From Gemmatimonadota bacterium (GTDB lineage: Bacteria > Gemmatimonadota > Gemmatimonadetes > Gemmatimonadales > Gemmatimonadaceae): a DNA stretch of 34,787 nucleotides. Positions 8,182 through 33,838 of this stretch are shown piece after piece. Position numbers and translations under genes: made by a program. Each line of letters begins with the position of its first letter. Position 1 is the stretch's first letter. The stretch covers positions 1-34,787 of the forward strand of contig JANYIJ010000250.1 of NCBI GenBank assembly GCA_025362095.1. The letters run 5' to 3'. The notes under the pieces are model-generated. The model was not told the origin of the DNA. It was given only the letters and a program-made list of their open reading frames with translations, and ran no database searches.

Positions 8182-9441
8182 GTGAAACGGCCGCTCGCGC
8201 GACTCGAACTGGAAATCGCCTGGCGCTATCTGCGCAGCAGGCGCGGGTCGCGGCTGCTCTCGTTCATCACGGTGATCGCGATCAGCGGCATCGTCGTGGG
8301 CGTCAGCGCGCTGATCGTGATCATCGGCGTGATGAACGGACTCCAGACCGATCTGCGCGAAAAGATTCTCGTGGGCAGCCCTGATATTCGCGTGCTCAAG
8401 TACGGCGAAGAATTGCGGATCGACGACTGGCGGCCGCTGCTCGATTCGGTGCGCAAGAAGAAGGGTGTCGTCGCGGCCTCGCCCGTCGTGCTGACCCAGG
8501 CGCTCATGCGCAAAGACCCGGGGAGCTACTCCGAGGGGGTCTCGATCGCGGGGATCGCGCCGGCGGGAAGCGCCGATCCCGAGGTCACCACCATTCGCCA
8601 GCATGCCATCGAAGGCGATTTCAAATTCACCAGTGCTGGCGGCAAGCATCGCGGCGCAGTGGTAGGGAAATCGCTGGCGAGCCGAATGAGCGCGACTGTC
8701 GGAACGAAGCTCGTGCTGATGACATCGGTCGGCGCGAAGATGAACGCGGCGATGGGATTCATCATTCCGCGCAGCTTCGAATTCGAAGTGACGGGCGTAT
8801 TTGACACCGGAATGTTCGAGTACGACGACCGCTACGTGTTCGTCGATATCGAGGCGGCGAAAGATCTCGCCGGTCTCGACAGCGCGGTCACCGCGATCGA
8901 GGTTCGCACCGCCAGCCGCGCCGAGGCGCCGGCGATTGCCGAGTCGATGAATCTCGACTACCCCTATCACACGATGGATTGGCACGAGCAGAACTCGGGG
9001 CTCTTCAAGGCGCTGTCGCTCGAGAAGCTCGGCATGAGTGTGATCCTGAGTCTCATCGTGATCGTTGCAGCGTTCAACATCGTGAGCACGCTCTCGATGG
9101 TCGTGCGCGACAAGACGCGCGAGATCGGAATCCTCAAGGCGATGGGCCTGCCGTCCGCTTCTGTGCGGCGGATTTTCCTCGCGCAGGGGCTGGTGATCGG
9201 CGTCGTCGGCACGAGCATCGGGCTCGTCATCGGCCTGGCCGTGGGAATCGCGATGGGACGCTACCATCTGATCAAGCTCGATCCATCCGTCTATTTCATT
9301 GACCACCTGCCCGTGCAGATGCGCGTGCTCGACACCGTGCTGATTGTCGTGCTCGGCGTGCTCATTGCCACGCTCGCAACGCTGCATCCGGCGATCTCGG
9401 CGTCACGGCTCTATCCGATCGAAGCGATTCGCAGCGAATGA
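8182..9441 (+). CDS. lolC: LolC/LolE-family lipoprotein-releasing ABC permease
   Basis: 419 residues from the GTG at 8182, 7 bases after lysS; an earlier in-frame ATG lies inside lysS and would add unrelated sequence. The Lol complex extracts outer-membrane lipoproteins from the inner membrane and hands them to LolA. Topology fits a MacB/LolC-type permease: an N-terminal membrane helix (about residues 22-48, LSFITVIAISGIVVGVSALI), a large periplasmic domain, and three C-terminal helices around a KTREIGILKAMG coupling motif. It overlaps lolD by ATGA. Only one permease gene is present, so the transporter may be a homodimer or a LolF-like form. LolC and LolE cannot be separated by eye. Confidence 0.93.
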   Translation: MKRPLARLELEIAWRYLRSRRGSRLLSFITVIAISGIVVGVSALIVIIGVMNGLQTDLREKILVGSPDIRVLKYGEELRIDDWRPLLDSVRKKKGVVAASPVVLTQALMRKDPGSYSEGVSIAGIAPAGSADPEVTTIRQHAIEGDFKFTSAGGKHRGAVVGKSLASRMSATVGTKLVLMTSVGAKMNAAMGFIIPRSFEFEVTGVFDTGMFEYDDRYVFVDIEAAKDLAGLDSAVTAIEVRTASRAEAPAIAESMNLDYPYHTMDWHEQNSGLFKALSLEKLGMSVILSLIVIVAAFNIVSTLSMVVRDKTREIGILKAMGLPSASVRRIFLAQGLVIGVVGTSIGLVIGLAVGIAMGRYHLIKLDPSVYFIDHLPVQMRVLDTVLIVVLGVLIATLATLHPAISASRLYPIEAIRSE

Positions 9442-10139
9442 CCGAAATGCTCGCAGCGACTGGTGTGGTGAAGACGTTTCACGGCGGCGATGGCGCCGAC
9501 GTGCGCGTGCTCGAGGGCGTGGACATTTCTGTTTCGAGCGGCGAGATGATCGCCATCATCGGGGCTAGCGGTGCGGGAAAGAGCACGCTTCTGCACGTCC
9601 TCGGCGCACTCGAGCGTCCCACGGCCGGAGATGTGCGCCTCAACGGCGCGCGCGTCACCGACCTCGACGACGACGCGCTCGCCGACCTGCGCAACAGGAG
9701 CGTCGGATTCGTCTTCCAGTTCCACCACCTGCTGAAAGAGTTCTCCGCGCTTGAGAACGTGATGATGCCGCTGCGCATTGGGGGCCGGCCTCCAGCCGAA
9801 GCGCGCGATCGCGCCCGGGAACTGCTCGTCCGCGTGGGGCTGGAGTCGCGCATGAGTCACCGTCCGGCGGAAATGTCCGGCGGCGAACAGCAGCGCACGG
9901 CGGTCGCGCGTGCGCTCGCGATGCGTCCGCCGCTGCTCTTGGCAGACGAACCGTCCGGCAATCTCGATCATCACAATGCCGAGTCGCTGCACGATCTGTT
10001 CGCGGAACTCGCGCGGGAGATGGCACTTGGGCTCGTGGTGGTGACGCACAACCGCTCGCTGGCCGCCCGCGCCGGGCGCGTGCTCCTTCTCGAAGACGGT
10101 CGCCTCGATGATAATTCGGGATCTATGGGAGCCGTCTGA
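9438..10139 (+). CDS. lolD: Lipoprotein-releasing system ATP-binding protein LolD
   Basis: 233 residues, an ABC ATPase that powers the LolC/E permease encoded directly upstream (ATGA overlap). Walker A GASGAGKS is at 42-49. FQFHHLLKEFSALENVMMP is the Q-loop region of the MacB/LolD subfamily, MSGGEQQR is the signature, and Walker B/D-loop reads LLLADEPSGNLD. Length and motifs are ordinary. The stop overlaps the mcsA ATG (TGATG), so lipoprotein export and the arginine-kinase genes are probably co-translated. Confidence 0.96.
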   Translation: MTEMLAATGVVKTFHGGDGADVRVLEGVDISVSSGEMIAIIGASGAGKSTLLHVLGALERPTAGDVRLNGARVTDLDDDALADLRNRSVGFVFQFHHLLKEFSALENVMMPLRIGGRPPAEARDRARELLVRVGLESRMSHRPAEMSGGEQQRTAVARALAMRPPLLLADEPSGNLDHHNAESLHDLFAELAREMALGLVVVTHNRSLAARAGRVLLLEDGRLDDNSGSMGAV

Positions 10140-10636
10140 TGCTTTGCGACCAGTGCCATGAACGCGACGCCGTGCTGAACCTCACGCAGATCGTGGAGAA
10201 TGCCGTGACGCAGCTCCACCTCTGCGAGAAGTGCGCGGCCGAGCGCGGCATCGAGACCACGGTCTCGATGCCGAAGCATCCGCTTGGCGAGTTCCTTCAA
10301 GCGGTGCAGCAGCAGGCGCTCCAAATACCGGGCGACGCAGCGAGGTGCTCGTACTGCGGCACATCGCTGCGCGATTTCCGCGCGAGCGGCCGGCTCGGCT
10401 GCGCGCATTGCTATGGCGCGTTCGAACAGAGCCTGCGCGATCTGTTGCGCCGCGTGCATGGAAGCGCGCAGCATGTGGGGCGCGCGTACGAAGTGCCGAA
10501 TCCGGAGCTGCTCGAGCGCGACACCAGTCTCGGCGCACTCCGAGCGCAGCTGCAGAAGGCGATCGACAATGAGGAGTTCGAAACGGCAGCGCGGCTGCGC
10601 GACGAGATTCGGACGCTCGAGCTCACCGTGAGGTAG
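10139..10636 (+). CDS. mcsA: McsA-type zinc/UVR-motif adaptor of arginine kinase
   Basis: 165 residues. Four CxxC pairs, C3/C6 with C29/C32 and C70/C73 with C88/C91, form two treble-clef-like zinc sites as in Bacillus McsA. A UVR motif sits at about 133-163 (QLQKAIDNEEFETAARLRDEI). McsA activates the protein-arginine kinase McsB in Firmicutes; the downstream McsB and ClpC genes make that role likely here. The four-base-type overlap with lolD and the 7-base gap to mcsB indicate one operon. No ctsR repressor gene, which normally heads this operon in Bacillus, is present. Confidence 0.9.
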   Translation: MLCDQCHERDAVLNLTQIVENAVTQLHLCEKCAAERGIETTVSMPKHPLGEFLQAVQQQALQIPGDAARCSYCGTSLRDFRASGRLGCAHCYGAFEQSLRDLLRRVHGSAQHVGRAYEVPNPELLERDTSLGALRAQLQKAIDNEEFETAARLRDEIRTLELTVR

Positions 10637-10643
10637 CGCCGCA

Positions 10644-11732
10644 ATGACGCTCGATCTCTCGCTCCTTCCCGACGGCGGCGTGCCCTGGCTCGCCGCGAGC
10701 GGAGAGCACGCCGATATCGTCCTGTCGTCGCGCATCCGCTTTGCGCGCAACGTCGCGGGCTACGCGTTCACGGCGCGCGCTCGCGACGGCGAACGCCTCC
10801 GCGTGCTGGCGCAGGTTCGCGAGACATTGCCGCGGGTGCCGAGCCTTGTCGACGCGGTGTGCCTGCGCCTTGACGAGATGACCGTGATCGAACGGCAGCT
10901 GTTGCACGAACGCCATCTGGTGAGCAAGGAGCTTGCGGCGCTCGATTCGACGGCTGACGCCAGAAGCGGCGCGGCAGTGCTCGTCTCGAGCGATGCCGGC
11001 GTCATGATCAACGAGGAGGACCATCTCCGCCTTCAGGTGTTTCGTTCGGGATTCGACGTGGGCGGCGCTTTTCAAGCGGCAACGAAACTCGATCGCGAGC
11101 TCGGCGGCGAGGTGCCGTACGCGTTCCATCGCGAGTTCGGCTTTCTCACATCGTGCCCGACCAACACCGGGACGGGGATGCGGGCGTCCGTGCTGATCCA
11201 CCTCCCCGGCCTCGTGCTGACACAGGAGATCGCGAAGGTCCTCCAGGGGCTCCAGCAGATGGGGCTGACGTATCGCGGCCTGTACGGCGAGGGGAGCGAA
11301 GTGGTCGGGAACTTCTTCCAGATATCGAATCAGACCACGATGGGCCGTTCCGAGGACGAACTCACGGAACATTTGACGCGCGTTGTCAAGCGCGTGATCG
11401 AGCAGGAAGAGGAAGCCCGTCGTGTTTTATTGCGGGACGCCGGTTACATTATTGAGGACAAGCTTTGGCGCGCGTACGGAACGCTGCGGCACGCCCGCAG
11501 CCTCCCCGCCGACGAAGCGATGAACCTGCTGAGTGGCGTTCGCTTGGCCGTTGGACTGCAACTGCTGTCGGGCCTCAGTGTATATACCCTCAACAAGCTC
11601 CTGATATTCAGTCAGTCGGCGCACCTCTCGCTCGAAGCGGGGCGGACGCTGACGGAGAGCGAGGCAAATCTGGCGCGTGCGCGGCACGTGAGGCAGGTAC
11701 TCGCAAGCGAGGCGGGGCTGGCCGACCGGTAA
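10644..11732 (+). CDS. mcsB: Protein-arginine kinase McsB
   Basis: 362 residues, a phosphagen-kinase-fold protein kinase that phosphorylates arginines, marking proteins for ClpC in Bacillus. Nucleotide-binding arginines are in VLSSRIRFARNVAGY (26-40). The NEEDHLRLQ loop (123-131) and the catalytic cysteine C171 in SCPTNTGTGMRAS (170-182) are intact, so kinase activity is expected. The C-terminal phospho-arginine sensing motif RDxxRA of Firmicutes McsB is not conserved: the matching place reads ANLARA (341-346), lacking both the R and the D. Allosteric control by phospho-arginine is therefore probably absent or different. The alignment was done by eye on remembered sequence. Confidence 0.94.
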   Translation: MTLDLSLLPDGGVPWLAASGEHADIVLSSRIRFARNVAGYAFTARARDGERLRVLAQVRETLPRVPSLVDAVCLRLDEMTVIERQLLHERHLVSKELAALDSTADARSGAAVLVSSDAGVMINEEDHLRLQVFRSGFDVGGAFQAATKLDRELGGEVPYAFHREFGFLTSCPTNTGTGMRASVLIHLPGLVLTQEIAKVLQGLQQMGLTYRGLYGEGSEVVGNFFQISNQTTMGRSEDELTEHLTRVVKRVIEQEEEARRVLLRDAGYIIEDKLWRAYGTLRHARSLPADEAMNLLSGVRLAVGLQLLSGLSVYTLNKLLIFSQSAHLSLEAGRTLTESEANLARARHVRQVLASEAGLADR

Positions 11733-11771
11733 GCGAAACCGGAATCGGCGGCTCCTCAGACTGGGGAATTC

Positions 11772-14267
<2,496 letters not shown>

Positions 14268-26338: not shown

Positions 26339-27886
26339 GTGAGCGCACCGCGCGTCGTATCAGAACCGATCGGCGGTGGAGCGCTCACCCGGGCGGCGCT
26401 CGAGGGAAGTGCGCCGGTTGGCTGGTTTCTGCCGCGACCTCGCGGCGCGGAGGAATGGCGCAGCCACGCGGAGGCCGTGCGGAGCGCGTTCCCCGGCGCG
26501 CGCTGGCTCGAGACACTGCGTCCCGCGCTCTCGGCGAGCGGCGCCGCAGCAGAGCGACTCGAGCGCGTCGCCGCGGGTCACGGCGTCGTGGTCACGACAG
26601 GACAGCAGCCTGGTCTCTTCGGCGGTCCGGGCTATACGTGGCTGAAGGCGATTTCCGCGCTCGAGTTTGCGAACAGGCTCGAACGCGAAATCGGTGTGCC
26701 TGTTGCGCCAATATTCTGGGCTGCGACCGACGACTCCGATTTTGATGAAGCGGCGTCGACGATCGTCGCGCTTGGCAGCGAAAGCCGCCGGATCGCGATC
26801 GAGCGTGAAGGACCGGAATCACTGGTCATGTCGCAGATGCCGACGGGCGACACGTCCGCGCAAATCACTGCGCTCACCGACGCAGCGGGCTCCGCGTCGC
26901 AGTCGGATGTGCTGGCCGCGCTTCGCGCCGCCTATCATCAGGACGCCACAATCGGAGGCGCGTACGTGCAGCTGCTGCGCGCGATTCTCGAGCCGCTTGG
27001 CATCGCCGTGCTCGACGCGTGGCATCCCGCCGTGCGCTCTGCCGCGCGGCCGACGCTCGTGGAGGCGCTCAATCGCGCGGCGATGATCGATGAAGCCGTC
27101 GCGCTCCGCGGAGTTTCGATCGAGCGCGCCGGATTCCGCGCACAAGTCGCGCGTGTGCCGCGGCTCTCGCTCGTGTTCCGCAGCACCATCGGCGTGAAAG
27201 AGCGCGTTCCGCTCGCGCAGGCCGCGGACGCCGCGCGCCGCGACGATCTCGTGCTCTCTGCGAACGTGCTGTTGCGACCGGTGGTGGAGCGGCGGCTGCT
27301 TCCGACCGTCGCATACGCAGGCGGAGCGGGGGAGATCGCATACTTCGCGCAGGTCACGGCCGTGGCCGAGGCGCTTGGCGCGGCGCTTCCGCTCGTCGTG
27401 CCGCGCTGGTCCGCCACCGTCATTGAGCCAGCGGTCGACCGCATGCTCGGCCGTCTCGGCATGATGTTTGACGATGTGAAGTCGCCGCATGTCGCTGAAC
27501 GCCGGATCGCCGACCGCGCGATGCCGGCTGGGGTGCGGGAGGCGCTGGAGGGACTGCGCTCGGCAGTCGAAGCGCGCGTCGATGCCGTTGCCTCGAGCAT
27601 GACCGCCACGCCGCTCGTCACGAAAGAAGTGATCGAGGGCGCGCGCGCCCAGCTTCGCCATCGCGCTGAGCGCCTCGAGCGCCGCATTCGCGCGGCGGCG
27701 GGCCGCCGTGAGACAGCCGCGATGAACGATCTCACGGCCATTCGCGCCGCCCTCATGCCCGGCGGGGCGAGGCAGGAGCGGAAGCTGAATTATTTGCCGC
27801 TGCTCGCACGCCACGGCGATCTGCTGATCGAGCAGCTCAAGGCCGGTGCAGCGATTCACGCCGGCGGATTGATCGGATCCAAGTGA
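26339..27886 (+). CDS. bshC: Putative cysteine ligase BshC (bacillithiol synthesis)
   Basis: 515 residues, GTG start with GGAG about 10 bases before it. BshC is thought to add cysteine to glucosaminyl-malate in bacillithiol synthesis. The Rossmann-like nucleotide-binding core shows VVTTGQQPGLFGGPGYTWLK (85-104) and PIFWAATDDSDFDEA (124-138), the best conserved family blocks. A long C-terminal coiled-coil (about 400-470) leads to the ending ERKLNYLPLLARHGDLLIEQL. Length is slightly below the usual 530-540. bshA and bshB are not in the window. It lies 1 base before murJ, so it is in the same operon as an unrelated membrane gene. Confidence 0.93.
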   Translation: MSAPRVVSEPIGGGALTRAALEGSAPVGWFLPRPRGAEEWRSHAEAVRSAFPGARWLETLRPALSASGAAAERLERVAAGHGVVVTTGQQPGLFGGPGYTWLKAISALEFANRLEREIGVPVAPIFWAATDDSDFDEAASTIVALGSESRRIAIEREGPESLVMSQMPTGDTSAQITALTDAAGSASQSDVLAALRAAYHQDATIGGAYVQLLRAILEPLGIAVLDAWHPAVRSAARPTLVEALNRAAMIDEAVALRGVSIERAGFRAQVARVPRLSLVFRSTIGVKERVPLAQAADAARRDDLVLSANVLLRPVVERRLLPTVAYAGGAGEIAYFAQVTAVAEALGAALPLVVPRWSATVIEPAVDRMLGRLGMMFDDVKSPHVAERRIADRAMPAGVREALEGLRSAVEARVDAVASSMTATPLVTKEVIEGARAQLRHRAERLERRIRAAAGRRETAAMNDLTAIRAALMPGGARQERKLNYLPLLARHGDLLIEQLKAGAAIHAGGLIGSK

Positions 27887-32677: not shown

Positions 32678-33838
32678 ATGATTGCAATCCTCGATCCCTT
32701 CTCCGGCATCGCGGGTGACATGACCCTCGGCGCGCTTCTGGATCTTGGTTTGGATCCGGATTGGCTCCGCGCTCTGCCTGTCGCGCTCGGTCTCGAAGGC
32801 ACCACCGTCAAGATCGAGCGCGTGAAGCGCGGAGAGATCGCGAGCTGGAAAGTCGATTTCGACATTCCCCCGCAGCCGCACGGCCGTCACCTCAAGCATC
32901 TCAAGGCGATTGTCGATGCATCGCCCGCGCCGGCGCATGTGAAAGAGAAGGCCAACGCCGCATTCGAAGCTGTCGCGACGATCGAGGCCGAAATCCACGG
33001 CACCACGATCGACAAAGTGCACCTGCACGAAGTCGGCGCGGTGGACGCGATTCTGGATATTGTCGGATCGATTTGGGGATTCGATCTCATTGGTGTCGAT
33101 GCCGTGTACTGCGGCACTATCGCCCTCGGCGACGGATTCGTCGACGCGGCGCATGGGCGTCTCGCGGTTCCCGCGCCGGCCACACTGCGTCTGCTCGAAG
33201 GTCAGCGCGTACGCAGCGGTCCCGAGGGAAGCGGGGAACTCACCACACCCACGGGCGCTGCGCTGGTCAAGGTGCTCTCGCTCGGCGTCGCGCCTGATGA
33301 GTATCGTCCGCTCAAGAGCGGCTACGGCGCGGGCACGAAAGATCCGCAGGGTCGAGCGAATGTTCTGCGAATTATTCTCGGCGAGCTCGACCCGGTGAGA
33401 GGTGAGGAGTGCGAGCCGCTGCTCTTGCTCGCAGCGGATATCGATGACATGACTGGCGAGTACATCGCCATGGCCGCCGATCTCATTCGCGAGGCCGGCG
33501 CACTCGATGTGACCCTCCTGCAAACCATCATGAAGAAAGGCAGGCCGGGCGTGCGAATCGAAGTGCTCTGCCGTCCCGCCGACGCAACCAGACTTGAAGC
33601 GTTGCTCCTGCGCGAGAGCAGCACGATCGGCGTCCGCAGAACGGCACTCACCCGCCGCGCGCTGTCGCGCAACGAGGCCTCTGTGGATGTGTTCGGCCAT
33701 CGCGTCTCCGTAAAGTCAGTGCAGCTCCCCGGCGGCGGAGAGCGCGCAAAAGCTGAGTACGAGGACGTGCGCCGCGTCGCGCGCGAGACCGGAAGGACAA
33801 CCGCCGATATTCTTGAGGCCATCGCAAAGCGGCCGTAA
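32678..33838 (+). CDS. larC: LarC-family nickel-pincer cofactor nickel insertase
   Basis: 386 residues. LarC inserts nickel into the pyridinium-dithiocarboxylate nucleotide that becomes the cofactor of lactate racemase-type enzymes, using CTP. Family blocks are DPFSGIAGDMTLGALLDLG (6-24), KVHLHEVGAVDAILDIVG (with the HxHE cluster) and ADIDDMTGEYIAMA in the C-terminal half. The Lactobacillus gene is split by a programmed frameshift into LarC1/LarC2; here both halves are one frame. larA, larB and larE are not in the window. The function is well supported by family, but the client enzyme is unknown. No Shine-Dalgarno precedes the ATG; direct repeats form the leader. Confidence 0.93.
   Translation: MIAILDPFSGIAGDMTLGALLDLGLDPDWLRALPVALGLEGTTVKIERVKRGEIASWKVDFDIPPQPHGRHLKHLKAIVDASPAPAHVKEKANAAFEAVATIEAEIHGTTIDKVHLHEVGAVDAILDIVGSIWGFDLIGVDAVYCGTIALGDGFVDAAHGRLAVPAPATLRLLEGQRVRSGPEGSGELTTPTGAALVKVLSLGVAPDEYRPLKSGYGAGTKDPQGRANVLRIILGELDPVRGEECEPLLLLAADIDDMTGEYIAMAADLIREAGALDVTLLQTIMKKGRPGVRIEVLCRPADATRLEALLLRESSTIGVRRTALTRRALSRNEASVDVFGHRVSVKSVQLPGGGERAKAEYEDVRRVARETGRTTADILEAIAKRP

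Follow-up and report, generated by a model that had tools for sequence, protein, structure and literature searches.

The McsB protein-arginine kinase encoded in the analyzed DNA (the window, 34,787 nt of contig JANYIJ010000250.1 from a Gemmatimonadota bacterium) carries substitutions at three of the four residues known to hold phospho-arginine (pArg), S285, R337 and D338 in B. subtilis numbering, and retains only R341. We consider it probable (roughly 0.6) that the protein is an active, McsA-dependent arginine kinase in which pArg feedback and pArg-linked oligomerization are lost or weak. The residue losses, which spread through the phylum in a recognizable order, occur beside an intact kinase core, an intact activator and intact pArg readers, and it is from this pattern that we infer kinase activity together with the loss of pArg binding, feedback and oligomers.

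The mcsB gene (10644..11732, + strand) is a complete ORF of 362 residues, whose product matched the phosphagen-kinase catalytic domain (PF00217) at 1.9e-61 and whose closest solved structures are 6fh1 (E = 2e-78) and 6tv6. Its C-terminal stretch, ESEANLARARHVR, aligned without gaps with EERDVRRAALIR of the Geobacillus enzyme (6fh1) and likewise with NERDIRRAALIR of the B. subtilis enzyme (6tv6), in which the motif neighborhood reads PEERDVRRA and NERDIRRA, respectively. Because there is no gap, A341, N342, R345 and A346 of the window protein correspond to R337, D338, R341 and A342 of B. subtilis McsB, the numbering of which was verified on C167, R194, S285, R337 and R341. The translation and the alignment bear out the first-pass annotation, which had read ANLARA (residues 341–346; 11664..11681, +) at the site of the pArg-pocket motif RDxxRA: R337 is replaced by Ala and D338 by Asn, and R341 and A342 are retained. 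The equivalent of S285, which contacts the pArg phosphate across the interface (PMC8370763), is A289 (11508..11510, +), and the equivalent of R194 is K198 (11235..11237, +). Lys or another residue at position 194 is common outside Bacillaceae, so K198 is not clade-specific. S329 (11628..11630, +) occupies the place of Q325, which is 96% conserved outside Gemmatimonadota and absent in nearly all McsBs of the phylum, a loss that by itself implies no link to the pocket.

In the B. subtilis octamer, clamped by autophosphorylation of R194, the resulting pArg194 is gripped by R337, R341, S285 and D338 of the neighboring dimer, and the same pocket mediates allosteric stimulation of Geobacillus McsB (PMC8370763). 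The R337A/D338A mutant of the B. subtilis enzyme lost its 4-, 6- and 8-mers in favor of dimers, whereas R194K selectively destabilized the octamer (PMC8370763). The window McsB looks like a natural near-equivalent of these two published mutants. The pArg-regulated RDxxRA subtype is marked by R337 with D338 and by the R194 clamp; the window protein, with Ala and Asn at the former and Lys at the latter, falls outside it on both counts, and at the receptor pair S285 and R341 it combines Ala with the retained Arg. A joint loss of the R194 clamp and its receptor was not supported, since position 194 is Lys, Ser, Asn or Gly in many McsBs that keep the RD pair.

By fold, core residues and gene neighborhood, the window protein is a McsB. 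The catalytic C171 (C167; 11154..11156, +), located in SCPTNTGTG, is kept in all 56 Gemmatimonadota alignment rows, the NEEDH loop (residues 123–127; 11010..11024, +) is conserved, and R29, R31, N119, E120, E121, D122, R125, C167, R176, R207 and E212 are invariant across the phylum, in agreement with the initial description of the core as intact. The AlphaFold model, built from 25 aligned sequences (pLDDT 88.5, pTM 0.88), matched 6tv6 and 6fh1 over its full length with a TM-score of about 0.9, and both the sequence and the model matches to these structures place a McsB-type helical dimerization domain at the C-terminus. The motif lies on a helix formed by residues 338–356, in a block with pLDDT of about 97. 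Given the high-confidence model and the full-length match, we expect normal folding of the domain, with the pocket residues specifically changed.

Loss of a regulatory site can also accompany decay of a whole enzyme, and the window protein scored below the NCBIfam equivalog cut-offs (NF002194, 363.1 against 385 bits; NF053707, 354.7 against 500 bits). Such a cut-off is a rule for annotation and does not define the family. Missing it is weak evidence against membership, and both models are probably tuned to Bacillota sequences. It is very unlikely that the kinase is degenerate or inactive: none of the core positions examined varies, the gene keeps mcsA and clpC as neighbors in nearly all genomes, and the family was found in 287 of 298 Gemmatimonadota genomes.

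That ANLARA arose from an alignment, frameshift or assembly artefact is hardly credible. The source assembly is fragmented (253 contigs), but the alignment is gap-free, the helix is modeled with high confidence and many independent genomes are alike; neighboring species and genera carry the same state, which excludes a sequencing error and already refutes the artefact. An R–D pair elsewhere in the pocket, named in the first-pass annotation as evidence against its claim, was looked for in the alignment and none was found. Misalignment and a displaced pair were rejected, as there is no gap and no substitute pair in the motif helix. Outside Gemmatimonadota, R337 is conserved at 96% and D338 at 82%. 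Among the 91 columns conserved at 80% or more outside the phylum, those that fall below 20% in Gemmatimonadales are 89, 115, 206, 325, 337 and 338; catalytic and nucleotide-site positions are unaffected in Gemmatimonadota. The hypergeometric P is about 0.01 at this threshold and 0.003 at the 75% threshold, which adds S285; with the columns partly dependent, both figures are indicative only, and they point to a loss of R337/D338 beyond chance.

We compared 234 aligned McsBs, 200 once near-copies had been removed; the Bacillota sample took in best-scoring and worst-scoring members alike. In the deduplicated set, R337 is absent in 54/66 Gemmatimonadota, 12/25 Negativicutes (the class of Propionispira), 3/66 other Bacillota and 1/42 members of other diderm phyla, proportions that are not random-sample estimates because the Gemmatimonadota loci were picked partly by score and partly by family. 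The clade-wide loss of the pair, proposed as a check at the outset, is thereby confirmed for the Arg. D338 is absent in 32/66, 11/25, 6/66 and 13/42 of the same groups, the last figure being mostly Planctomycetota that read RN, and S/T285 is missing from 62 of the 66 Gemmatimonadota McsBs. R341 is retained in all 200. The McsBs of Omnitrophota, Verrucomicrobiota, Zixibacteria and Latescibacterota retain RD, those of Planctomycetota mostly read RN, and most sampled diderm phyla keep R337, for which reason we rejected the earlier suggestion of a trait of diderm lineages. The losses are in Gemmatimonadota, Negativicutes and sporadic cases, among them the monoderm S. aureus (its short McsB is gapped at 337/338 in the large alignment and was judged from a pairwise one instead).

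In Negativicutes, S285 has mostly become Gly, R337 is gone in about half of the McsBs and D338 in nearly half, and R341 is retained. The same pocket columns were eroded in this class independently of Gemmatimonadota, so that McsB self-sensing seems to have been unplugged at least twice in nature.

The order of the losses was read from trees computed without the pocket columns; they were quick trees with no bootstrap, and their root was not inferred. The Gemmatimonadota McsBs form a single group on the pocket-free tree (SH-aLRT 96–99). In the sister or deepest Gemmatimonadota class sampled (f11), R337 and D338 are kept, Q325 is gone and S285 is mostly gone. Most families in the class of the window have lost R337 and carry Phe at 285 while keeping D338, and in Gemmatimonadales (f1–f3, the window included) both R337 and D338 are gone. 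On these trees D338 was lost later than R337, in Gemmatimonadales. Position 337 changed at least six times within Gemmatimonadota, meaning repeated loss or some regain, and the fewest changes across the 200 McsBs are 14 at 337 and 19 at 338.

The rest of the pathway is in place. Linkage of mcsB with mcsA and clpC is seen in the window and in most of 85 relatives. Upstream of mcsB in the window lies mcsA (10139..10636, +; NF053706 at 1.6e-35, below the curated cut-off), whose product, the McsB activator, has four CxxC motifs (residues 3, 29, 70 and 88) and a UVR motif (PF02151) in the window; at least three CxxC motifs are found in 82/85 loci. Downstream lies clpC (11772..14267, +), encoding the unfoldase, in which the N-domain residues T7, R9, E32 and E109 (E106) are kept; in ClpC, T7, R9, E32 and E106 belong to the pArg sites or lie close to them (PMC12583610). 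Both glutamates are present in 81/83 loci, the remaining two being short fragments. The source genome also encodes a low-molecular-weight phosphatase with CTGNTCRS, a YwlE-type motif, and Thr at that place of the motif steers YwlE and PtpB toward pArg (PMC8001253). CtsR was searched for in 20 Gemmatimonadota genomes and none was found; the same search was positive in the one Negativicutes genome tested, that of Propionispira, which served as the positive control. B. subtilis has both mcsB and CtsR genes. In the B. subtilis control, however, the searches for PF00217 and for CtsR both gave no match, which makes that control uninformative; the mcsB/CtsR stretch is probably missing from the genome used.

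McsB belongs to the McsA-McsB-ClpC quality-control pathway, in which it tags damaged proteins with pArg. We propose that its allosteric pArg receptor site has been dismantled stepwise in Gemmatimonadota. Client proteins would go on receiving pArg from McsB, the mark would remain readable for ClpC and a phosphatase of the YwlE type would take it off, but autophosphorylated McsB or pArg products would bind the C-terminal pocket weakly or not at all. With pocket binding lost or weak, activation by pArg should be absent or weak as well, and so should the oligomers held together by pArg, the closed octamer among them. We predict that the enzyme works as a dimer or in a complex with McsA, and that McsA is the main switch of kinase activity. 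Some residual pArg binding may remain, because the phosphate-contacting R341 never varies. The first-pass annotation had considered the kinase either freed from autocatalytic control or differently subject to it. The second wording fits better, with McsA as the probable main switch, since the enzyme lacks S285, R337 and D338 but retains R341, and McsA, the ClpC readers and the YwlE-type phosphatase remain; "freed" would go beyond what the sequence says. More tentatively, and with a chance slightly short of even, Gemmatimonadota and, separately, Negativicutes may possess a pArg-blind McsB that writes the degradation mark without sensing it, McsA alone setting arginine phosphorylation. If so, positive feedback and a kinase chamber gated by pArg, as described in B. 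subtilis, would be dispensable.

The pocket could also have decayed neutrally, McsA alone always having set the activity, with little physiological effect. This is a no-consequence version of our proposal and overlaps with it; we regard it as somewhat unlikely. The losses are indeed recurrent (at least 14 changes at 337 and at least 19 at 338), intermediate stages persist in living lineages, and for S. aureus McsB a working complex with McsA has been reported (PMC12467219). However, nearly all other lineages keep R337, and the site is therefore normally under selection. Sequence alone hardly separates neutral decay from a dismantled receptor.

A third possibility, and an improbable one, is that the pocket has been remodeled, so that R341, together with R281, R/K343, the clade-specific E/D325 or K314 and the aromatic F285, binds pArg or another effector with changed specificity. 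R341, A342 and R346 are invariant in Gemmatimonadota, and Y310 and K314 are clade-specific and nearly fixed in Gemmatimonadales. As a counterpoint to simple pocket loss, Glu at 325 occurs in most of the window's class, alongside Lys or Arg at 314, and these residues could be parts of a remodeled site. N338 is paired with R343 in 16/22 rows, and R/K343 accompanies D338 in only 12/91; nevertheless, the 338/343 association comes from 4–5 independent pairs and is not significant, and we rejected the N338–R343 covariation as one that appears in raw counts and is unsupported by independent pairs. Moreover, F285 in most of the class puts a bulky ring at the former phosphate contact, and position 337 varies freely (Ala, Ser, Thr, Gly, Leu, Pro), unlike in a dedicated new site.

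Compared with known systems, the window McsB resembles the B. subtilis and Geobacillus stearothermophilus enzymes (6tv6, 6fh1-6fh3) in its full-length fold, catalytic and nucleotide-site residues, dimerization domain, and adjacent mcsA and clpC. It differs from them in having ANLARA, A289 and K198 where they have RDxxRA, S285 and R194; B. subtilis McsB forms pArg-linked multimers, and no CtsR gene was found in the 20 Gemmatimonadota genomes searched. The loss of the RD pair has a precedent in S. aureus McsB (8gqd, with McsA), which also lacks an adjacent R–D pair (KRADILRE) and for which docking nevertheless predicted a pArg site (PMC12055656). That enzyme, 35% identical over the model, keeps the Asp (phmmer alignment) and has Glu, not Ala, after the final Arg; according to a review, the S. 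aureus McsA-McsB tetramer is activated by the McsA zinc finger. The Negativicutes McsBs (L233-L262, L068) show the same pocket eroded separately on a distant branch of the tree, and a CtsR gene is present in the one genome tested, that of Propionispira. Arginine and creatine (phosphagen) kinases share the catalytic domain with McsB, but have no McsB dimerization domain and act on other substrates in a different biology.

A literature search pairing McsB with Gemmatimonadota returned nothing relevant, an absence that is not proof. As far as our tools show, three observations on this known kind of system are new: the pocket eroded step by step across the clade, the erosion recurred in Negativicutes, and R341 never varies. 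The pArg receptor has been described as making McsB self-activating and self-compartmentalizing. Lineages that lack the receptor but possess the whole writer-reader-eraser pathway would separate essential regulation from a Bacillus-type elaboration, and the stages that survive in living lineages (first RD, next xD, finally neither) supply natural proteins for testing McsB regulation. That R341 persists even where its partners have gone suggests that this residue has a second role.

Several observations concern other proteins and genes. Three McsBs of the Bacillota sample (L204, L206, L208) have Trp in place of the catalytic Cys (AWPTN), with NEEDH and the other core motifs intact. Two from the class of Propionispira (L193, L194) have Ser at that position and NEDDH for NEEDH, L194 also being without other core residues; both are candidate inactive or altered kinases. 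In the window, lolD (9438..10139, +; TIGR02211 at 6.7e-83, below the curated cut-off) lies directly upstream of mcsA, and bamA directly follows clpC. Among loci L002-L081, lolD is within 3 kb of mcsB in 33/35 Gemmatimonadota loci and in 25/45 loci of other, mostly diderm, phyla, and the lipoprotein-export genes and mcsAB-clpC (9438-14267 in the window) seem to form an old neighborhood. Farther along, 32678-33838 encodes a LarC-like nickel-pincer cofactor protein in a single frame, and 26339-27886 encodes a BshC-like bacillithiol cysteine-adding enzyme that scored above the NCBIfam cut-off; the bacillithiol thiol pathway is best known from Bacillota.
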